Part shown: piece by piece, positions 26,497-56,752 of the stretch | How the letters are laid out: the number at the start of each line of letters is the position of its first letter | Numbering within the stretch: position 1 is the first letter of the stretch | NCBI GenBank assembly: GCA_916048095.2 | Contig: OU696584.1 | Coordinates: 958,501-1,022,500 of the forward strand | DNA from: Sacculina carcini | Lineage: Eukaryota; Arthropoda; Thecostraca; Sacculinidae | Reading direction: 5' to 3' | Length of the DNA stretch: 64,000 bases | Program-made: the position numbers and the translations under genes | Notes under the pieces: generated by a model | What the model was told of the DNA's origin: nothing | The model's database searches: none | Seen by the model: the letters and a program-made list of their open reading frames with translations, nothing else

Positions 26497-29400
26497 TCAT
26501 TGATATTAATATGATACACATCAGTAGCATTGTGTCAGACGTACTGTTTGACCCTGTCGTTAATACAGTTGTGTTGTCTCATAACACCCTTCATTGTCGA
26601 GTTTAGTTCATCTAGGCAATGGTGCGGTGAATATGTATGTACCCATTGGTTTATTCTCCGCGAGATAGGTGTGGGATATTATTTCCATATTGTTATGTCA
26701 CAAATTGTATTATATATATGCATGTGTGTCTGTGTGTTTGTCAGCGTTGTGTCGCAACTCGGTGGATGGTCAGTGGTACAAGTACGATGACACGAGAGTT
26801 AGTGTTGTAAGCGAGCAGGAAATTGTCACCTCAGATGCCTATCTTCTCTTCTATCATCGCAACTCGTCGCATCCGTGCTATGGTGCGTCGCTCACTTGGA
26901 TACCTCCCTCTTACTTCATCACTCACACACACACAGGCAATTTATACCGTTGGAATTCTTACATTACACCTTGATCTTTGATTTTAATATCAATAAAACA
27001 CAAGTATATTGTATTTTTCGTCAAATGTGTGCCCTGAAGTTTAGATGTGTTGTTTGTGGTCGGTTTATTGGTCTGTTGTCCAATTCCTGCCAGTAAATAT
27101 CACACGCCACAATTGTCTCCAAAATCATGCATTTAATCCTGAGATACAGCAGTTATTTTGCCGAATAAACAAGATGGCGGTCAAGCTGCAGTGTGAAAGT
27201 TGATTGTACAGCTGCATTTTGATGTGTGGTCTGTCATAATGGTGTCATAATGGTGTCAGTTGTGATGTCATAATGGTGTCAGTTGTGATGTCATAATGGT
27301 GTCAATTGTGGTGTAATAATGGTGTCAGTTGTGGTGTCATAATGGTGTCAGTTGTGGTGTCATAATGGTGTCAGTTGTGATGTCATAATGGTGTCAGTTG
27401 TGGTGTCATAATGGTGTCAGTTGTGGTGTCATAATGGTGTCAGTTGTGGTGTCATAATGGTGTCAGTTGTGGTGTCATAATGGTGTCAGTTGTGATGTCA
27501 TAATGGTGTCAGTTGTGGTGTCAGTTGTGGTGTAATAATGGTGTCAGTTGTGGTGTCATAATGGTGTCAGTTGTGATGTCATGATGGTGTCAGTTGTGAT
27601 GTCATAATGGTGTCAGTTGTGATGTCATAATGGTGTCAGTTGTGATGTCATAATGGTGTCAGTTGTGATGTCACAATGGTGTCAGTTGTGATGTCATAAT
27701 GGTGTCAGTTGTGATGTCATAATGGTGTCAGTTGTGGTGTCATAATGGTGTCAGTTGTGATGTCATAATGGTGTCAGTTGTGATGTCATAATGGTGTCAG
27801 TTGTGGTGTCATAATGGTGTCAGTTGTGGTGTAATAATGGTGTCAGTTGTGATGTCATAATGGTGTCAGTTGTGGTGTCATAATGGTGTCAGTTGTGGTG
27901 TAATAATGGTGTCAGTTGTGATGTCATAATGGTGTCAGTTGTGATGTCATAATGGTGTCAGTTGTGGTGTCATAATGGTGTCAGTTGTGATGTCATGATG
28001 GTGTCAGTTGTGATGTCATAATGGTGTCAGTTGTGGTGTAATAATGGTGTCAGTTGTGATGTCATAATGGTGTCAGTTGTGGTGTCATAATGGTGTCAGT
28101 TGTGGTGTAATAATGGTGTCAGTTGTGATGTCATAATGGTGTCAGTTGTGATGTCATAATGGTGTCAGTTGTGGTGTCATAATGGTGTCAGTTGTGATGT
28201 CATAATGGTGTCAGTTGTGGTGTCATAATGGTGTCAGTTGTGGTGTCATAATGGTGTCAGTTGTGGTGTCATAATGGTGTCAGTTGTGGTGTCATAATGG
28301 TGTCAGTTGTGGTGTAATAATGGTGTCAGTTGTGATGTCATAATGGTGTCAGTTGTGGTGTCATAATGGTGTCAGTTGTGGTGTCATAATGGTGTCAGTT
28401 GTGGTGTCATAATGGTGTCAGTTGTGATGTCATAATGGTGTCAGTTGTGATGTCATAATGGTGTCAGTTGTGGTGTCATAATGGTGTCAGTTGTGATGTC
28501 ATAATGGTGTCAGTTGTGATGTCAGTTGTGGTGTCATAATGGTGTCAGTTGTGATGTCATAATGGTGTCAGTTGTGGTGTCATAATGGTGTCAGTTGTGG
28601 TGTCATAATGGTGTCAGTTGTGGTGTCATAATGGTGTCAGTTGTGGTGTCAGTTGTGGTGTCATAATGGTGTCAGTTGTGATGTCATAATGGTGTCAGTT
28701 GTGGTGTCATAATGGTGTCAGTTGTGATGTCATAATGGTGTCAGTTGTGGTGTCATAATGGTGTCAGTTGTGATGTCATAATGGTGTCAGTTGTGATGTC
28801 ATAATGGTGTCAGTTGTGGTGTCATAATGGTGTCAGTTGTGGTGTCATAATGGTGTCAGTTGTGATGTCATAATGGTGTCAGTTGTGGTGTCATAATGGT
28901 GTCAGTTGTGGTGTAATAATGGTGTCAGTTGTGATGTCATAATGGTGTCAGTTGTGATGTCATAATGGTGTCAGTTGTGGTGTCATAATGGTGTCAGTTG
29001 TGGTGTAATAATGGTGTCAGTTGTGGTGTAATAATGGTGTCAGTTGTGGTGTAATAATGGTGTCAGTTGTGGTGTCATAATGGTGTCAGTTGTGGTGTCA
29101 TAATGGTGTCAGTTGTGGTGTAATAATGGTGTCATAATGGTGTCAGTTGTGGTGTAATAATGGTGTCATAATGGTGTCATAATGGTGTGTTCGGGGTTTC
29201 AGTCGGTACAAGATGCTTTCTGGTTTAGTATGATTGAGAAATATCAGATGACAATAACAGAGTCATATGAAAAGTGCTAATATTTGCCAGTAGCTGAACA
29301 TGGTTGAATGTTAGATCGTGTGTAAGTTCAATAATGCACCCGTTAATAATATTTATACGTGACATTATTTCGCTGGTATATTTGTTTTGGTGGAGTTTTT

Positions 29401-33600: not shown

Positions 33601-34625
33601 GATGTTGAGGTTACTCAGTTTATCTGGCCGAACAACCTCGAGCAGTTGAGGAAGGAGACGGCACTGTGACCGGGTTCTTGCACAGTTCGGTGGTTGATTT
33701 GATGTGTTGGCGTCTGAGTTGTGTGTGCTGTGCGGTGTTACATGATGTGTGTGGTGTGTGGTGTTGAATTGCAATCTGGACAGGTGTCATCGATTGAGTC
33801 ATTCAACCTTTTCTGATAGGACAGAAGGGCAGGATGATGACCGCATCTCAACCTGGCCAGATGCACCTTGTTTTCGCGTGTGAGTGTGTTTTCTGATTTG
33901 TGTATATCCGATGGGTGTCTTTGTAGAAGTGTGTTGTGCTGTAGTGAGTGTATGGCTTTCCGTGCGATCTCTGTATGTATATGTTTCTTGATTGATGTGC
34001 GTGGGGGAGCTGGTGGAAGCCATGTGAAAATTTGTCTGTGGTAAAGTGTGCTTGGTGTTGTTTTTATGGTTCTGTTTGTGTTTTCTTGTGTTGTGAGGTG
34101 ATGTAGTGGATGTGCTGTGTTGGTGACTGCTGCTGCGAGTGTTTGTGTGCCTCTCATGTCTAGGTGGTGTGTCAGTCTCAGGATTTTAGTTTCGTGATGG
34201 AGGTGGTCTACTGGTGTGGTGGCTGTACAATCTGTGATTGTTCTGAGTGCGGTGTTTTGAAGTGTTTGAGGTGTGTTGGTGTGGCGTGTTGCAAGATTGC
34301 TAGCCCATGCTGGGATAGCATATTCTATCACGGGTCGGATGTATTGTTTGTATATGGTGGTTGTGGTGTATTTGTTGTGTCCGAAAGTTGTGTGTGAGTG
34401 CTTTCATTGTGTTGAGGCGTGGGGCTGACTTTGGTTTTGATGTTGGTGATGTGTTGTTTGAATGAGAGGTGTGTGTGGGATGATCGTGTTGTTGATAGTT
34501 ATTTGTGGTGTGTAGTTGTGTTCAGAAGTCCAGTTGGTGATGAGTGTGGCTGTGGATTTGTCCGGTGCAGATTCACAGCACGTTTGCTCATCTCGAAGTA
34601 GCATTACGGAGCTTTGTCGAAACAA
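33600..34625 (-). pseudogene. Decayed non-LTR retrotransposon, C-terminal part of ORF2
   Basis: On the minus strand, frames resemble the region after the reverse transcriptase palm: a TPQITINN block, then IEYAIPAWASNLA, LQNTALRTITDCTA, HLARLRCGHHPALLSYQKRL and a CPDC zinc-knuckle start with a later His/Cys pair. The pieces lie in different frames near 33.78 kb and 34.4 kb, so at least two frameshifts break it. Its sequence differs from both the 57-58 kb and the 60-64 kb LINEs, so it is a third family. Confidence 0.75.
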
Positions 34626-35239: not shown

Positions 35240-36455
35240 TGCTGCCTGATTACAATATATTTATTTTGTATGAAATAAATATTCGACGAAAATACTAATT
35301 AAATATTAAATAAATTCCTTCATAAATGATATAAACTCAATTTTGAAGTTTCAGCGCATTTCTTCTTACTGAGGGATATTGTCGTTTGACAATGCAAGGT
35401 CACTTTATAAAAATTGATAAATTTTCAAATGTATACACCTATTTTTATGTAATTTAAATCAGAATCGTTCAAAACATGGCAAACATCATACTCTAAAAAA
35501 ATATATATACTTGGGGAATCGTATCGCATGGCATAATCGTATACATGTGCAATCGTATCGCTAGGCTGTGAGTGGCAGCTTTGTGTTTATTGTTTACAGC
35601 GTGATAGGTAAGGTGTATTGGGTAATATTTAGTAAGTGATATTAGGTGGTATTACGTGATATTTGTAGTGATATTAGGCGATATTAAGTGATATTGATAG
35701 TGATATTAGGGTTATAAGTCATATGAGTGTATTAGCGTGATAGGTAAGGTGTTATATTTTGTGTTGTTATATTTTCATATGTAAAGTTGTGGTCGTTGTT
35801 CATTATTCCAATAATGAGTTGAGTTGGTTATATGATTAAATTTAGTTTTCATGTGCGGATTTGAACAGGTTCTTATCCAACATCACGCCTATTTCACCTT
35901 TTCATCTCATATCCATGGTTTATAAATCAGTTCATGTTTTCGTCTGACAGTTGCCGCATGGTCATTTTGGCCGGCGCATTCTATAAGACCAAATAACAAC
36001 AAAGCAGTCAAGTAACATTGGCATAAACGCATAAATACGATACATTATGTGAATGAATGAAGTGCATGACTCAGGATTATGGTGAAGTAAATGCAAAACG
36101 TTGATCACACGGAAGTTTATTCTGCATTGTTCATCTTCGCTCTCATAACTGTAGAGAAACTGTTGAGTTGAATTCGATCATCTCTTGTTTTATACCAAAC
36201 TTGATATTTCTGTCCAAATTTAGCTTTGGCTTTTGTTTGTAGCGGTCATAATTTATGCAGGGACGTTGAATGCTGATGTGAAATATGAAAATAGCTGTTG
36301 ATTCTTACTTATTGCAACTTTTTCAATGTTTTTCAGCCGGCCTGCGTCAAATCATTGCAAAATATGTGCTGCTTTTGTGCGCACCAACCTCTCCTCTGTA
36401 TATGCATTGTCTGTCGTTGAGTCAGCAATGATTTATTATGAATGCTGATACATGT
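35240..36455. other. AT-rich intergenic, upstream of the CDK20 array
   Basis: I see no gene. About 35628-35705 holds a short run of GTGATATTA-like words (GTGATATTAGG, GTGATATTTGTA). CDK20's true promoter may lie here. Confidence 0.4.
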
Positions 36456-37178
36456 GATCAGTAGCAAGTGAAGTGATGGATCAGTAGCAAGTGAAGTGAT
36501 GGATCAGTAGCAAGTGAAGTGATGGATCAGTAGCAAGTGAAGTGATGGATCAGTAGCAAGTGAAGTGGTGGATCAGTAGCAAGTGAAGTGATGGATCAGT
36601 AGCAAGTGAAGTAATGGATCAGTAGCAAGTGAAGTGATGGATCAGTAGCAAGTGAAGTGATGGATCAGTAGCAAGTGAAGTGATGGACCAGTAGCAAGTG
36701 AAGTGATGGACCAGTAGCAAGTGAAGTGATGGATGAGTAGCAAGTGAAGTGATGGATCAGTAGCAAGTGAAGTGATGGATCAGTAGCAAGTGAAGTGATG
36801 GATCAGTAGCAAGTGAAGTGATGGATCAGTAGCAAGTGAAGTGATGGATCAGTAGCAAGTGAAGTGATGGATCAGTAGCAAGTGAAGTGATGGATCAGTA
36901 GCAAGTGAAGTGATGGATCAGTAGCAAGTGAAGTGATGGATCAGTAGCAAGTGAAGTGATGGATCAGTAGCAAGTGAAGTGATGGATCAGTAGCAAGTGA
37001 AGTGATGGATCAGTAGCAAGTGAAGTGATGGACCAGTAGCAAGTGAAGTGATGGATCAGTAGCAAGTGAAGTGATGGATCAGTAGCAAGTGAAGTGATGG
37101 ATCAGTAGCAAGTGAAGTGATGGATCAGTAGCAAGTGAAGTGATGGATCAGTAGCAAGTGAAGTGATGGACCAGTACC
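36456..37178 (+). repeat. 23-bp array running into the CDK20 start codon
   Basis: Units of GATCAGTAGCAAGTGAAGTG followed by ATG repeat at exactly 23 bp. The first unit ATG is at 36476 and the real CDK20 ATG is at 37166, which is 30 periods later. Each unit reads ATG-GAT-CAG-TAG (Met-Asp-Gln-stop), then CAA-GTG (Gln-Val). One unit has GTG for ATG, one has GAG for CAG, and a few have GAC for GAT. The final unit reads ATG-GAC-CAG-TAC and goes on as the gene. G at -3 and +4 makes each ATG a good start context. Confidence 0.95.
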
Positions 37179-40100
37179 AGGTACTTGGTTGTATGGGTGA
37201 GGGAAGTCACGGTCTGGTGCTGCGAGCTCGCTGCGTGCGCACCAGTCGTTTGGTCGCTCTCAAGAGGATAAGAGCGCTCACTTGCTCGGGCTCGTTGAAC
37301 GTGTTGGTGTTGCGCGAGATGCTGGCCATGCGTCAATTAGAGGCTGGCACTTGTGATGGCGCGCATGACAGCCAAGTGGAAGACAATCATGATGTCGAGC
37401 GTACTGGTGGAGTGAACATTGTCAGATTGTGGGATGTGTTCGCTCACGGAGCTTCTCTGGTGCTGGTAATGCAGTATATGAACACGGATTTGTCGCAGGT
37501 GAACCGTGCTCGTCTTTCTTCTGTCATTGCATCTTTTTCCATCCGTTGTGTTATTTTGAATTAAGAAAAATCCAAAACAAATTGGATTTGAGAACACTGA
37601 TATTCTGTACATTACGTGTGAACTAAGCGTGCACAAACCAACATCATCGTTTCCATTGTCAGCTGAATAATGAATCAGTTAGGCTTTGTTTGTCTTCTTG
37701 CTGCGATATTCCCCGTGAAATATGAAATCGATGATCGGTCCGCGGCATAGTAAATAGTAAATATTCCCTGTATTTTTTACAGGCTAAATTAGGAGAATTA
37801 AATAAATTCAGTGGATTTTCTAGACGATCGCCTGAACATGTATTTGTATCAGGTGATTGGTGATATCAACCAACACTTGGGTTTGGCTCGAGTTAGACGC
37901 TATATGCACGCGCTGCTCAGTGGCCTGATGTTCCTGCACGAGCGAGGCATGTTGCATCGTGATATCAAGCCGTCCAACTTGCTCATTGATCAAGGCGATC
38001 GTCTCAAACTGGCTGACTTTGGCCTGTGCAGACTACGTCACGCCACCAGGCCTTATACACACCAGGTGATTCATCATGAATTACACATCAAATCTGGCTC
38101 AACCCATTTCCTGCCGTCATTGCATTGATTGCATCAACTTGGACATTTCCAAGCTTGTATATCAATGTAGTTCTTTTTTTTTAAATATTACGTTGATATC
38201 AAATAAATGTTCCTAATTAATATAGCCTAATTATTTAATGTGTGTTAATATAGACATAAAACTACAAAATGCTATTATTAAGTGATCTCGTATGATATCA
38301 CCGGGAGGTAAAGGCTTAATAAAACAACGTTTTTTCTTTTTTCATATCCTCTCCACAGTTTTCATGATTTCAATTTAAAAAAGTCATAAATCACAACCAT
38401 TTATACCAGCCATACTCCAAGACCATTACATTTTATCTCAAATATTAATATCCCTGTCGCATTGGTGATGAAGTTATTACGATTCTTACAGCGGGGAAGG
38501 ACGTAGTGATGGCGCCAGGATTTTCCAATGGGGGGGCTGAGGAAAAAGTTGTGGGGCTTGGCGAAGCATGAAGAGCTACACTCGAACGCTGACTACATAA
38601 TATTATAATATGGGCCTGGAGCACACTGATTCAGTCCTCGAACTTGAACCAAAATTACAGGACTTCATTTACAATGGTAATACATTTTTATGTATATGAT
38701 TTGGGGGGTTTGGCATATTTTTGGGGGGGCTGAAGTTCCCCAAGCCCCCCTCCTCCTTGGCGTCGCCACTGGAAGTACTCAATTTTGTCTCAGTGAAAAT
38801 ACGGTGTTTGTGCGTTTATATTCTACGCTATTTTAACCGTGTATAAAGAGACCATTTTCGGTCTAGATTTTCACTGTGAAAATAGCTGGTCTCTTATTCA
38901 TGGGTGTAATTCTTTTAGCATCAGTATGATATCTGATGAAACATTTAATGAAAGCATAACTTTGTGGACTTGTGGTGGACTCCGTGGTGCAGTGGCTAGC
39001 ACACCCGCCTTTCAAGCGGGAGGTCCGTGGTTCGAATCCCGGCGGAGCAGAATTTCATCGGGCGAATTCTATAATCCAACAGCCCCTGTCAACCCAGTAG
39101 TAAATGATGGTACCAGATATCAGTCATGTGTTGTGTCATGCATTCTGGGGAGGTGGCCCTCTCACGTCCTAATACGTATTACGTCCATTTGGCGTCATAG
39201 CGTGGAGAGGGTCGGTTCTGCGGTGACAGCGAGCTGCACGGGACACACCTGTGTGTTCATAAGCTTCGGCTTCTTCCAGTGTAGCAGCTGTCACTTAGGC
39301 ATTTAACCTTTTAACCTTTATTTATAAATATAATTCAAAATTCATTTACATCTATTTTCAGCCATTTCATGTAGCTATTTCAAATCTGCCAGGTTACATT
39401 AGCAATGTCAAATGCAATTTCTATGATGAATAAAGTTTTTCATTACTTAAACTTCCAGAATTTTTGGCAAATAGTTGAACTGGTCTTACACACTTGAAAA
39501 TACATGTTGGTGTGGGGGTAGGTTGCGACCAGGTGGTACCGTGCTCCCGAACTGCTATTTGGCGCCAGACGCTACTGTTCGGGCGTGGACATGTGGTCGG
39601 TCGGCTGTGTGCTAGCTGAAATGATCAACCGAGCCCCGCTGTTCGCCGGCCGCTCGGATATTGAGCAGTTGATAGTAGTGGCTCGAGCACTTGGCTCGCC
39701 CTCACTCACTGACTGGCCCCAACTGGCTGCATTGCCAGATTATAATAAACTGCCGATGCCTCACTTTCCGGCGCCGGCTCACAATACAGCACTAACAGCG
39801 GTCGTGCAGCCGTGCAGTCAGCTGGTGCCCGAGGCGGTGGACTGGCAGCGACGCTTGTTATCTGCCCTGCTAGTGTATCATCCGGCACGACGTCTATCTG
39901 CCAGCCAGGCTCTGCACTCTCTCCCTCCACCATCATCACCATCATCGCCACTACACTCTCTTCCTCCACCATCATCACCATCACCGCCACTACACTCTCT
40001 CCCTCCACCATCATCACCATCACCGCCACTACACTCTCTTCCTCCACCATCATCACCATCACCGCCACTACACTCTCTTCCTCCACCATCATCATCATCA

Positions 40101-40724
40101 CCATCACCGCCACTACACTCTCTTCCTCCACCATCATCATCATCACCACTACACTCTCTCCCTCCACCATCATCACCGCCACTACACTCTCTTCCTCCAC
40201 CATCATCACCATCACCGCCACTACACTCTCTTCCTCCACCATCATCATCATCACCGCCACTACACTCTCTCCCTCCACCATCATCATCATCACCGCCACT
40301 ACACTCTCTCCCTCCACCATCATCACCATCACCGCCACTACACTCTCTCCCTCCACCATCATCACCATCACCGCCACTACACTCTCTTCCTCCACCATCA
40401 TCACCATCACCGCCACTACACTCTCTTCCTCCACCATCATCATCATCACCGCCACTACACTCTCTCCCTCCACCATCATCATCATCACCGCCACTACACT
40501 CTCTTCCTCCACCATCATCACCATCACCGCTGTGTGTGCCGTCATTATCGAGTGGCACGGTGACCCCGGTCGGTCATGATGCGACCTCATATCTCGCTGT
40601 CACATCAGTATCGCCCAACTTAGTTAAACCGGTCGAATTATCAGTCATTAATGAGAAAATTGTGTTTGACCGACTGCGAAAACAATTGGACGAATTTCGC
40701 CTCGTTTACTGTAAGATTCGCTGA
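37166..40724 (+). CDS. CDK20: Cyclin-dependent kinase 20 homologue (3 exons, 582 aa) with repeat-expanded tail
   Basis: Ser/Thr kinase of the CDK20/CCRK family, which regulates ciliary kinases and cilium length. Exons 37166-37498, 37853-38065 and 39522-40724, all joined in phase 0. MDQYQVLGCMGEGSHGLVL (start and P-loop) mirrors the family's MDQY start; ALKRIR holds the ATP lysine (Lys33). An acidic insertion follows the C-helix. Then LHRDIKPSNLL, LADFGLC, the activation segment [20 protein letters not shown] (split by intron 2 after THQ), VDMWSVGC and LPDYNK. After RRLSASQAL, where vertebrate CDK20 has a short tail, sixteen copies of LHSLPPPSSPSPP-like sequence follow (about residues 315-519), then a 60-residue tail to the TGA. 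Family length is about 346 aa. The start lies in the last unit of the 23-bp array. Whether the repeat is translated is not proven. Confidence 0.88.
38504..38771 (+). mobile_element. hAT-like MITE (CAGTGGCGG family)
   Basis: The left end is TAGTGATGGCGCCAGG and the right end is GGCGTCGCCACTG. Flanking 8-mers gaaggacg and gaagtact share six positions. The interior matches the element at 3857-4197. It lies in CDK20 intron 2. Confidence 0.55.
38975..39325 (+). mobile_element. tRNA-derived SINE candidate
   Basis: The head resembles a tRNA: an A-box TGGTGCAGTGGC, a D-arm GTGC...GCAC, a perfect anticodon stem CCCGC/GCGGG with loop CTTTCAA (anticodon TTC), and a perfect B-box GGTTCGAATCC. The T-stem and acceptor stem are mispaired, so it is not a working tRNA gene. 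A 250-bp unrelated body follows and it ends in TTTAACCTTTTAACCTTTAT, a short repeated tail as SINEs have. It lies in CDK20 intron 2. Confidence 0.6.
39911..40530 (+). repeat. 39-bp coding minisatellite in CDK20 exon 3
   Basis: Sixteen units of about 39 bp (CACTCTCTTCCTCCACCATC followed by ATCACCATCACCGCCACTA), with lengths of 33, 36, 39 or 45 bp, all multiples of three. Change in length is mostly loss or gain of ATC/ACC triplets. The CDK20 frame is open throughout; two other + frames and two - frames are also open, so openness alone is weak evidence. Confidence 0.9.
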
Positions 40725-42555: not shown

Positions 42556-43611
42556 CTAGAGCATTATGTGGCCACGAACGCACCAGCGATCGACACTGAC
42601 GTGCGTGCTGAACAAATTACCGGAGAAGAGCCAGCGAGTGAGCCAGCCAAACACGAGCGATGACACGATCAGCACAGCCGCGTACTGCAGCCACGCCCAC
42701 TGCAACACTCGCCATACGCCAGGCCGGTAGTGAACCACTTGTCGGTCCGGGTAGTTGACGGTCAAGTCGAGTCGAAAGCGTCGAGCTCGCCGTATCGGAG
42801 ACAACGTCGGAGTCCAGTGCGTGAAACGAGTCTCAACCTCAGCAGTTAAATTACGAGCAAACATCTGGGCAATGATCGATGATAGAGTCGGCACGGGGTG
42901 TCCTTGGTTCATATCGCTCTTATGACGAGTGTCAGCGAAAACATCACCAGGAGATGACGAGGCGGAGGACGGACGGTGGTCGGACAAGAGATGACGTTGT
43001 CTCAGTTTCATTTCGGACAACACTTGCACCGCCGACACATCGTCTGCTGTCATGCCTTGTCGTGGGTCCACACTCACCATGACCAGCCAATCTTGCGTTA
43101 AACGTTCTGTCTCAGCACCGTGCAAACTGACCGAGAAACCGAGCAACATCTCGAGCGACCGCATTCTCTGCCACGGCGGCATTACAAAATCAGCGACCAA
43201 ATGCAGTCGCTCGCTGCGTCCGTCACGGTCCACGTCCTGCTCGCGACTCTCGACGTACGGCACGGCTCGTGCGGTCGACGGATACACCCGTGCGTCAGAC
43301 AGTTGCGGAATGGTCGACCACATCTGGTAGCCGCCGCGAGGAAGTATCACCGGCCCCTTGTCTCCAGTCTCGCTGGCACTCCAGTCATCGGTGTGCAACA
43401 CACACAAGCATTCGTGGGTGAATCGTACACTGAGAGGCTCCCGAGCGACGGCCATTTTGAGCCACAACGCGCCGCCGTTATAAACAACCACCAGCGGTAC
43501 CAGCAGCCACAACAGGCGACACACGCAGCTGAACGCAAAACCGGCCGTCCAGAATGCGGCCCGATGTCGCACAACAGGACATTCCTCATGCAACGTGTAC
43601 AGTGTGGACAT
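42556..43611 (-). CDS. TMEM231: TMEM231 homologue, intronless, 351 aa
   Basis: Two-pass membrane protein of the MKS/B9 complex at the ciliary transition zone, part of the diffusion barrier between cilium and plasma membrane. The start MSTLYTLHEECPVVRHRAAF parallels the family's MxLYELFSHPV start, so the ATG at 43611 is preferred over one 23 codons upstream. The first membrane segment is about residues 20-43 (VCRLLWLLVPLVVVYNG). Then LWLK, SVRFTHECL, MWSTIPQLS, VESREQDVDRDGRSERLHL, YRPGVWRVLQWAWLQYAAVL and a second membrane segment near residues 300-325, then a short tail. Length is slightly above that of vertebrate TMEM231. No introns. It is convergent with CDK20. Confidence 0.85.
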   Translation of the reverse strand: MSTLYTLHEECPVVRHRAAFWTAGFAFSCVCRLLWLLVPLVVVYNGGALWLKMAVAREPLSVRFTHECLCVLHTDDWSASETGDKGPVILPRGGYQMWSTIPQLSDARVYPSTARAVPYVESREQDVDRDGRSERLHLVADFVMPPWQRMRSLEMLLGFSVSLHGAETERLTQDWLVMVSVDPRQGMTADDVSAVQVLSEMKLRQRHLLSDHRPSSASSSPGDVFADTRHKSDMNQGHPVPTLSSIIAQMFARNLTAEVETRFTHWTPTLSPIRRARRFRLDLTVNYPDRQVVHYRPGVWRVLQWAWLQYAAVLIVSSLVFGWLTRWLFSGNLFSTHVSVDRWCVRGHIML

Positions 43612-44216
43612 TACAGACAACCCTGGTGCCACAGATACACTGGCAATAATACAACCTGCAGTTATTGCAAGCACAAGCAATGCGGCCGCTTAGCTTGGCT
43701 CATTTACATTGCACACAAGTGTCAAATAAATGCTTAATCGCACATACCAATTATCATCTAGTTTTGCCATAGAAAAACAGGGTCCTAACTACCCGAAACA
43801 AATAATGAACACGTTTTGTGTATATTGTACTTGTCTTGCGATTTTCATTGAATTACATAAATTACGCGTTGAATAAAAAATACAACCTTTTTCGTGTTCT
43901 CATTTCACGTGTTTGCCTAGCGTTGATTGACAAAGTGTTTGTATGTGTGTGTGTATATGTGGGTTTGTGTGTATATGTGTCAGTGTATATGTTTGTTTTT
44001 TGTTTGTTTGTATGTATTGTCATTCAACATCAAGTACACAAATAGAACACTACAAAAACAAAACAAATGACAAAGTCCGCCGAGCATCGCTCCTTAGCAG
44101 ACTTGATGTTAATTATATGGAATTAATATAGTTGACATTTGTGATGGATAGTAATATAGCAAACTACACATATATATGATAATATGCATGAGTACATGAT
44201 GTATATGTATGTGTCA

Positions 44217-53289: not shown

Positions 53290-55836
53290 ATGGAGGAGGC
53301 TGGATCAGTACTGGAGCACGCTGCCTCGTTGAGTATCAACAGTTTGTCGCGCGTCGCTCGCAAGTCTGGCATCGTGTGCACAATTGGACCTGTGACGCGG
53401 TCAGTGGAGCGTCTGGTCGAGCTTATTGAGGCCGGCATGAATGTGGCGCGCATGAATTTCTCGCACGGCACACACGAGTATCACCGCGAGACCATGGCCA
53501 ACGTGCGGAGCGCTGTCGACGTGTACAGCAAGAAGGTGAGCACATAGCGTGTCATTACTGAGGTAGTTCAACATGGGCCATATGAGCCCCTTGGGAGGTG
53601 TGATGTTCTCTTTGAGGGAACCTAGGAAGAAATTACCGTATTTGCCGGTGTATAAGTCGACCCCCTAAAATTCGACGGAAATTTACGATATTATGATATA
53701 TCCTTTGTATAAGTCGAGCTGAATTGTTTCATTATATTGAACTTTTATATTAACAATTATATTATAATGCGACGAACGCTTTAAAATGATTCAGTTTCTC
53801 GCTGTTTGATGAGTCTGACGGACGCACACCCACGCACAATGAGATGCATGAGATACGGCATTGGTTACCATCACATCTGAAGCGATGAATACGAAGTTAA
53901 ATTTTATTACTCAGTATATAAGTCGAGGTCGATTTTTGATCGAAAAAGGTCGACTTATACACCGGCAAATACGGTAATTATAATTGGGAGCACCGTGTTT
54001 TTTCATGGGTCAGGAAAAATACATGCTGAAACAGTTTATTCCTTTGTTTTATTACATTCGATGTTCTATTCGTCGAAGTTCGTGTATGTCTGTGTGTTCA
54101 CCCCACCTGTATGTACAGTCGTGGTGTTGTTTTGGTGGTCGGTGGAAATAGTTGCGGGCTTATATGAGCTAATCCTCTCGATAAGTCTCATCACGACGAT
54201 CCATGCGTGTATATGGCACCACAAGGACTTTAACAGTGAACTAGCGAGCCAGTGTTCAGCAGGCGTCATACAAGCAGTAATATCGATCCCAGACGCTAGC
54301 TTATGCTCTTGCTAGATTTAGTCACAAATACACACACAACATGCACACCCACGAGCATTCGAGTGTGATATTTGACCTGCGCTTGATTGTGGCAGGTGGG
54401 ACGTCGCGTGCCGATTGGCATTGCGCTCGACACCAAGGGTCCTGAGATTCGTACTGGCCTGCTGGAAGGCGGGGCGAGCGCCGAGGTTGAGCTACAGGCG
54501 GGCGGCTCTGTTACACTGACCACGGACGCGGCATATGAGTCGCGCTGTACTGCTGATATGCTCTACGTCGACTACGCCAACATCACGCGCGTGCTGCCGG
54601 TGGGTGCGCGCGTGTTCATCGATGACGGCCTGATATCGCTGGTGGCCGAGCGCGTCGAGGCGACCGGAGTGGTGTGTCGCGTGGAGAACGGCGGACTGTT
54701 GGGTAGCAAGAAGGGTGTCAACCTGCCTGGCACGGCGGTTGATTTGCCGGCCGTGTCCGATAAGGACCGCGGCGACTTGCAACTGGCCGTCGAGGAGCAG
54801 GTGGACTTTGTGTTCGCCTCGTTCATCCGTGATGCGGCCGGCGTGCATGCCATTCGCGAGATCCTCGGCGAACGCGGCCGTCATATCATGATCATCTCCA
54901 AGATCGAAAACCACCAGGGCATTCGCAACATGGACGAAATAATAGCCGCCTCCGATGGTGTGATGGTGGCTCGAGGTGATATGGGCATCGAGATTCCGCC
55001 CGAGAAAGTGTTCATTGCGCAGAAGGCGTTGATTGCACGCTGCAACATTGCAGGCAAGCCGGTGATATGCGCCACGCAGATGCTCGAGTCAATGGTGAAC
55101 AAGCCGCGACCCACACGTGCCGAGGTGTCGGACGTGGCGAACGCTGTGCTGGACGGCGCTGATTGTGTCATGTTGTCGGGCGAGACTGCCAAGGGACGAT
55201 ACCCGCTTCACTGTGTGCGTATGATGGACAGTGTGTGTCGTGAGGCTGAGTCGGTCATCTGGCATCGCTCCTACTACTCGGACGTCTGCAACCTGGTCAC
55301 AACTACTACTGAATACTGAACTCTCTCTCTCTGTATCTCGCTGTCCTCCCTCTCTCTTCCTTCTCTCTCTCTATCTCTCTTCTACTACTTTCTCTTTCCA
55401 TCCTTATTCTTCATTTTTCTCCCGTTCTCTCTATAGCTCTCTCGCCTTTTCACTGCTCCACATCGCTACTTCTAGCTTATTGCTGTCTGTCTGTTAATGT
55501 GTGTTGTCTGTCTGTTAATGTGTGTTGTATGTCTGTCGGTTAATATCTGTTGTATGTCTGTCTGTTAATATCTGTTGTATGTCTGTCTGTTAATGTCTGT
55601 TGCTTGTTGTTTGTTCGTTTTTGGAGTGTCGTTTTTCTTTTAGTTTTCGTCGCTGACACTTATGCTCGCTATATTGTGTGTGTATGTGTGTGTGTAGACT
55701 GGCAGTGTGGATCGTGGAGTGTCTGTGACAATGGCGGCAGTGGGAGCGGCTATTAAACTGAAGGCAGCTGCCATTATTGTCCTCACCACCACCGGCGTGT
55801 CAGCACACCAACTAGCCAAGTAAACACCGACACACC

Positions 55837-55868
<32 letters not shown>

Positions 55869-56752
55869 AACTCGCCAAGTAACCAGCGACATACACATCA
55901 ACACGTGTATGTGTGTCCACATGCATGCACTCCAGGTTGATATCGAAATCGGTAGTTTGTGTCAGTTTTTATCGTTGAATTACACTTGCATAAAGGAGCT
56001 GACGAACAGAATGAGGTCAATTCCTGATGTGAAGCTTCTGCTGCAGCCAACGGTCCACGAAAAAACACTTCGTAAAATCGTCATTTAGAAAGAAATATTG
56101 TATTTGTGGTTGTTTTACTTTAAATAGGTCTATTTTATTTCCGCGTTTTGCTTTCAATAGAGCCATTAAGTTCCTCATTTTCCAATGGTGCGGTTGACTT
56201 TTTCTTTTGACTTTTTTGACCAGTTGAATGATCGACTATAAAGTCGAAGACTGAAGGGAAAATATTAATCACTGATTCTACATTTCATAATCATGAATAG
56301 GGAACATAAAACAATTGGACAATATGGAAATTACAGACAATTCAACCCGAATTATTATTATTATTAGCATTTATCGTTTGCGATAATACGGTAGTGCACA
56401 CGCATGGTCAGTGCATATTGTGTGCGTGTGTGTGTGTTTGTGTGTGTTTGTGTGTGTGTATGTGTGTGTGTGTGTGTATTGTGGCAGATATCGTCCACAG
56501 TGTCCCGTGTTGGCCGTGACGCGGTTTGAACACGTGGCTCGCCAGTGCCACTTGTACCGCGGTGTGTACCCGCTGATGCACGCACAGGAGCGTCGCGAGG
56601 ACTGGCTGCAGGATGTGGAGGAGCGACTGCAGAGCGGCATCACATACGGCCAGCAGGAGGGTCTGGTGAAGACTGGCGACGCTGTCATCATGATAACCGG
56701 CTGGAAGGCGGGTGCCGGGGCCACCAATACCATGCGTGTGGTGTACGTGTGA
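53290..56752 (+). CDS. PK: Pyruvate kinase (4 exons, 510 aa)
   Basis: Glycolytic enzyme: phosphoenolpyruvate plus ADP to pyruvate plus ATP, cytosolic tetramer. Exons 53290-53535, 54396-55295, 55698-55819, 56488-56752; 511 codons, phases match. Blocks: [37 protein letters not shown] (substrate/K+ site), [13 protein letters not shown], then the B domain, [28 protein letters not shown] (active-site Lys and Glu), [15 protein letters not shown] (Mg-binding Asp), [35 protein letters not shown] and [10 protein letters not shown]. The effector loop [12 protein letters not shown] corresponds to the vertebrate fructose-1,6-bisphosphate loop, with Thr-Thr-Gly-Val-Ser in place of Lys-Ser-Gly-Arg-Ser. C terminus is [18 protein letters not shown]. 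Exon 2 was ended at CTG|GTCACA; unspliced, the frame would stop at 55319 and lose the C domain. Confidence 0.93.
53631..53979. mobile_element. MITE with near-perfect 30-bp inverted ends, PK intron 1
   Basis: Left end AATTACCGTATTTGCCGGTG continues TATAAGTCGACC; the right end is its exact complement. The word TATAAGTCGA recurs inside. AATT on both sides may be target duplication or part of the ends. 349 bp, no coding capacity. Confidence 0.75.
55826..55866 (+). repeat. (CA)n next to PK exon 3 donor
   Basis: ACACCGACACACCGACAC then a pure CA run starts 6 bp after the donor at 55820, and is followed by a second copy of the exon end plus donor (CACCAACTCGCCAAGTAA). Confidence 0.9.

Follow-up and report, generated by a model that had tools for sequence, protein, structure and literature searches.

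A 23-bp minisatellite overlapping the start codon of CDK20 in Sacculina carcini and probably derived from it

CDK20 and its surroundings

The window, a 64-kb stretch of the Sacculina carcini genome, contains a CDK20 gene and, directly in front of it, a tandem array of short repeats. The following features are referred to in the text.

36317..36336, plus strand: candidate T-rich splice acceptor with its AG ending at 36336, which would place the array in a 5′ exon
36456..37165, plus strand: minisatellite of 23-bp period in front of CDK20, comprising a partial copy followed by 30 full units
37148..37152, plus strand: TCAGT in the last upstream unit, putatively initiator-like
37161..37183, plus strand: last array copy in natural phase, which matches at 19 of 23 bases and takes in codons 1-6 of CDK20, start codon included
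37166..37498, plus strand: CDK20 coding exon 1, starting MDQYQV
37853..38065, plus strand: CDK20 coding exon 2, which holds HRD and DFG
39522..40724, plus strand: CDK20 coding exon 3, up to the stop codon
39915..40530, plus strand: second CDK20 minisatellite, a 39-bp repeat detected by TRF, in frame within the last coding exon

The three coding exons give a product of 582 residues with a kinase domain (Pfam Pkinase, E = 3.4e-52), whose residues K33 and E51 and motifs HRD, DFG and APE were invariant in an alignment of ten sequences. The gene was assigned to CDK20 on account of these intact catalytic motifs and of its best named relatives, the named homologues being mostly CDK20; the best PDB sequence matches among those listed were CDK7 and other CDKs. 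The closest homologue among the matches listed was 52% identical, and none of the 120 CDK20 homologues listed bore a barnacle name (about 8000 candidates were scored per search). Exon 1 exists as a single copy in the genome. Directly past the kinase domain, the 39-bp array encodes a run of 13-residue SLPPPSSPSPPLH-like repeats. In intron 2 there is a tRNA-like sequence (38978-39049; Rfam tRNA, 53.3 bits), judged by eye to be possibly part of a SINE.

On the minus strand CDK20 is adjoined by the gene for transmembrane protein 231 (42556-43689; Pfam TM231, 2.8e-42); both are ciliary genes. Another open frame of the minus strand (33738-34403) resembled, by eye, the C-terminal part of a LINE reverse transcriptase. 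The window also holds a pyruvate kinase exon, the best named matches of which came from Amphibalanus amphitrite (78%) and Pollicipes (77%), other matches lying at 77-79%. Judged by this one exon, the nearest named proteins are those of barnacles. COX1 had no match in the assembly (two candidates scored; the control was positive in 8 of 14 genomes), so that a mitochondrial contig is probably missing from it; contig C14, of suggestive length, yielded no mitochondrial genes either.

Composition of the array and its relation to the start codon

TRF delimited the array to 36456-37176, with a period of 23, 31.3 copies, 98% matches and no indels. Its copies run head to tail at a period within about 10-100 bp, as is usual for a minisatellite. 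The CDK20 ATG at 37166 stands in exact 23-bp register with it: 30 full units were found at the positions 37166-23k (k = 1 to 30), as a preliminary description of this DNA had claimed, and a partial copy lies 5′ of them, the repeat letters beginning at 36456. According to the same description every unit reads Met-Asp-Gln-stop. This applies to 28 of the 30 full units, but not to one that reads MDE-stop (36729) and to another in which the ATG is replaced by GTG (36568). An ATG is present in 29 of the 30 full units, in agreement with the earlier count of about 29 upstream ORFs. The units are nearly identical to each other, as in arrays with turnover. Searching the 264-Mb genome (43 contigs) for the unit with up to two mismatches yielded 31 matches, 25 of them identical and six with one base difference, every one of which resides inside the array; no copy outside the CDK20 array was found at this threshold.

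In its natural phase the unit reads AAGTG-ATG-GAT-CAG-TAG-CAA-GTG. Since the last copy in this phase (37161-37183) is the CDK20 start itself, the array is not merely located upstream of the gene, from whose ATG it is 0 bp away, but overlaps the first 18 coding bases. From the ATG onwards, 14 of 18 bases are equal between CDK20 and the unit, and the similarity ends past codon 6. Under the base composition of the window, at least 14 matches out of 18 in a fixed register have a probability of about 5e-6 (1.4e-4 for 11 out of 15 when the ATG is left aside), and beyond the array neither strand of the window showed a second 14/18 match to the unit. A common origin of the unit and the CDK20 start is thus very likely. 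All four differences between them affect third codon positions (P = 0.004-0.005 under random placement), which agrees with what had been noted before and is the pattern expected if some of the changes arose on the side of the gene under coding constraint. They also suggest, as far as such differences can hint at age, that gene and array parted long ago.

The preliminary description had taken the version of the gene to be the older one. A start of the type Met-x-x-Tyr was found in at least 82 of 120 listed CDK20 homologues (counted from the 20 commonest N-terminal prefixes), and Met1 and Tyr4 were invariant in the ten-sequence alignment. The Tyr codon of CDK20 therefore represents the conserved state and the TAG of the units the derived one, which bears the claim out. 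As a pointer to the older side, codon usage was mixed and did not settle on which side the changes occurred. GTA, as found at the CDK20 start, encodes few valines (4 of 30 in CDK20 with its repeat left aside, 0 of 34 in the pyruvate kinase exon). CAA, as found in the unit, is likewise the less common codon for its residue (5 of 17 and 1 of 6, respectively), and GAT and GAC are about evenly used (10:8 in CDK20, 8:12 in the pyruvate kinase exon). Because CDK20 is intact and the Met-x-x-Tyr start widespread, we consider the derivation of the array from the CDK20 start region, proposed earlier, to be well supported; the register, the 14/18 match and the restriction of the unit to this place in the genome point the same way.

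Two further relationships were tried and rejected. The window contains another array of period 23 (also 46 and 69) at 27240-29188, with about 85 copies of a sequence unrelated to the CDK20 unit; kinship was dismissed as the best rotation matched at 10 of 23 bases, a value reached by 4395 of 5000 shuffles. An N-terminal extension of CDK20 through the array fails on stops, which occur within a few units in all three frames.

To put the array into the context of this genome, minisatellites (period 10-200, at least five copies) were counted in 16 stretches at fixed positions. The 160 kb sampled comprised 22 arrays, equal to 7.4% of the sequence, and ten arrays of this type are present in the 64-kb window. 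Matches amounted to at least 90% in nine of the 22 and to at least 97% in three, many being degenerate TG-rich repeats. In period, copy number and homogeneity the CDK20 array falls within the sampled range; it differs from ordinary minisatellites of this genome in that its unit contains the start codon of a gene. Scaled to the genome, the sample corresponds to about 36,000 arrays. With a gene number of 25,117, borrowed from the Sacculina carcini draft (298 Mb, 58% repetitive; PMC9582164), random placement would put the start codons of about 79 genes within the final 23 bp of an array lying upstream, a rough value that ignores selection; the nine arrays with at least 90% matches alone would account for about 32 by the same arithmetic. 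As chance alone should place dozens of start codons at the edges of arrays, the array by itself is no evidence of a role, and a single start-codon array of this kind does not need a special cause.

The units as upstream ORFs and the 5′ end of the mRNA

Each typical unit forms a three-codon upstream ORF (ATG GAT CAG TAG). The term start-stop ladder, used previously, turned out to be a misnomer, since two sense codons sit between the ATG and the stop. Between 36339 and 37165 there are 36 ATGs. Of these, 28 lie in the context GAAGTGATGG (G at -3, G at +4) and thereby match the CDK20 ATG, as had been stated before; one further unit ATG has the context GAAGTAATGG, and the remaining seven do not represent the start codon of a unit. 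Hence 29 short ORFs with a usable start context precede the main ORF, the stop of each unit being separated by 11 nt from the ATG of the next. With the TAG disregarded, the unit frame (MDQ-stop-QVK-stop) ends at a TGA that overlaps the next ATG, so a 23-bp repeat of the CDK20 start makes upstream ORFs anyway.

The possible cost of the units was estimated by a scanning simulation covering nine parameter pairs, each cell being run 6000 times, with a single recharge distance of 100 nt and stalling excluded. With 30 units in the leader, 0.08-0.83% of the ribosomes initiated at CDK20 in the model if 30-50% of them resumed scanning, and 9.2-9.6% if 90% did. In absolute terms, most of the loss was already caused by the first one or two units. 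As the number of units rose from 2 to 30, the modelled output still fell, about twofold at 90% resumption, 15-24-fold at 50% and 50-120-fold at 30%, so that a dial based on copy number would be possible in principle, albeit on a low output. Few ribosomes would reach CDK20 through the full array according to these figures, which makes it plausible that its mRNAs avoid most units. The real cost may be below the modelled one because reinitiation can be independent of spacing: for DENR-MCT-1, independence of the distance between upstream and main ORF has been described (PMC5972666).

As to where such mRNAs might begin, the TCAGT within the GATCAG units is a motif which we take to be initiator-like. 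With a putative transcription start at A 37150, in the last of them, the leader would be 16 nt long and free of upstream ATGs. Among the 20 bases up to and including the AG, there are 4-5 T for eight AGs of the array and 6-9 T for five acceptors taken as real, which were placed by protein homology and by eye. Acceptor tracts placed by protein homology at 39502-39521, 55678-55697 and 56468-56487 are G/T-rich rather than pyrimidine-rich, that of CDK20 intron 2 being among them. A stable RNA structure over the last units and the start (236 nt) was looked for and rejected, as 150 of 200 shuffles were at least as stable (z 0.63).

Interpretation and significance

We favor, as the probable explanation, an ordinary minisatellite that was seeded on the CDK20 start and is tolerated since the mRNAs begin within or close to the 3′ end of the array or avoid most units. 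A 23-bp stretch reaching from roughly -5 to +18 relative to the CDK20 start codon would have been duplicated in tandem, whereupon the copies upstream of the real start would have expanded and been homogenised into a minisatellite, while the last copy would have remained the constrained start of CDK20. The process is ordinary for this genome; its site of origin is unusual. The array presumably has no evolved translational role. Working CDK20 mRNAs would start inside its 3′ end, with the last TCAGT as one possible site, or bypass most units in some other way, and mRNAs starting 5′ of the array would be poorly translated. In favor of tolerance we counted the lack of a stable RNA fold (z 0.63), the second array in CDK20 and the many minisatellites of the genome. 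Against it we counted that to place the transcription start within the array is guesswork, that the base rate of arrays is rough, that the cost of the units may be smaller than modelled, and that the candidate acceptor at 36336 would bring the array into the mRNA. The third-position differences also speak against it, since they suggest an old split and thus a long persistence of the array, which is not easily expected of a costly element.

A related, though unlikely, explanation is that the array acts as a repeated promoter, the initiator-like TCAGT giving rise to starts at many units and hence to mRNAs with varying numbers of upstream ORFs. The motif occurs in each GATCAG unit, and a start at the last one would leave no upstream ATG in its 16-nt leader. 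However, the resemblance to an initiator is a putative one, a given 5-mer is found by chance in a 23-bp unit with a probability of a few percent, and the GACCAG and GATGAG units lack TCAGT.

We are more doubtful about a translational function, in which the 29 three-codon upstream ORFs would be part of the mature CDK20 leader and throttle its output through repeated rounds of initiation, loss and reinitiation; the output would then be set by copy number together with initiation or reinitiation factors. The identical start context would suit such a function, as would the decrease modelled for 50% resumption, 15-24-fold between 2 and 30 units, and the T-rich candidate acceptor ending at 36336. 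Human PPAR-delta leaders with 4-14 upstream AUGs provide a precedent, as more AUGs went along with less translation (PMC2045109), and the distance-independent reinitiation by DENR-MCT-1 would help to sustain it. In human cells, however, DENR-MCT-1 aided start-stop upstream ORFs only (PMC5972666), to which the units do not belong. In addition, transcription of the array is an assumption of this explanation, the modelled output is very low at 30-50% resumption, and an array in this genome needs no selective reason. Still less do we expect that the array of about 30 start-codon steps is retained in the mature mRNA and maintained by selection to brake translation, repeat length and factor levels setting the amount of the kinase.

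Removal of the array by splicing, in cis or by spliced-leader trans-splicing, at the AG of the last unit beside the ATG appears very improbable. AGs are available at several points of each unit, and G/T-rich acceptors do occur in this genome, as in CDK20 intron 2, but the eight array AGs compared are preceded by fewer T than any of the five reference acceptors, and a literature search for spliced-leader trans-splicing together with barnacle yielded only a software tool of the same name. That an unrelated 23-bp array ended at the start codon by coincidence is hardly credible. Arrays are indeed frequent in this genome and the likeness is limited to 18 bases, but a fixed-register match of this quality has a chance of about 5e-6 and no equal in the window.

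The nearest known case that we found to a tolerated minisatellite seeded on a start codon is the 28-bp enhancer-region VNTR of human TYMS (TSER), likewise a minisatellite adjoining a start codon, which is located 13 bp downstream of the array (PMC3320636). Its copy number, two or three in most people, has been reported to affect transcription (PMC7712088). In the parts of these sources used here, the TSER repeats are discussed for their USF1 E-boxes and repeats that copy the start codon are not mentioned, whereas the CDK20 unit copies the start and overlaps the coding sequence. Nearer in mechanism are leaders with several short upstream ORFs before the main start, such as those of GCN4 and PPAR-delta. 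Their upstream ORFs are known in the mRNA, those of CDK20 from genomic sequence alone, and in PPAR-delta up to 14 upstream AUGs stem from spliced exons (PMC2045109), compared with 29 near-identical upstream ORFs of a tandem array spaced by 11 nt from stop to ATG. The start-stop elements of Hoxa11 and Arabidopsis NIP5;1 share with the units the very short upstream ORF; there, the stop directly follows the AUG (PMC8172242), unlike the units, which contain Asp-Gln before the stop and downstream of which a stable structure was not found. Among the matches listed from the open-licence PMC literature, none described an array with a unit that contains the start codon of its own gene.

If the array is transcribed, it would constitute a natural dose series of near-identical upstream ORFs in front of the start codon which they copy, and with length alleles the cost of each extra upstream ORF could be determined within a single gene. 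Without transcription of the array, the locus would illustrate how, in a minisatellite-rich genome, a repeat can reach into a start codon while the protein is protected by the choice of the transcription start.
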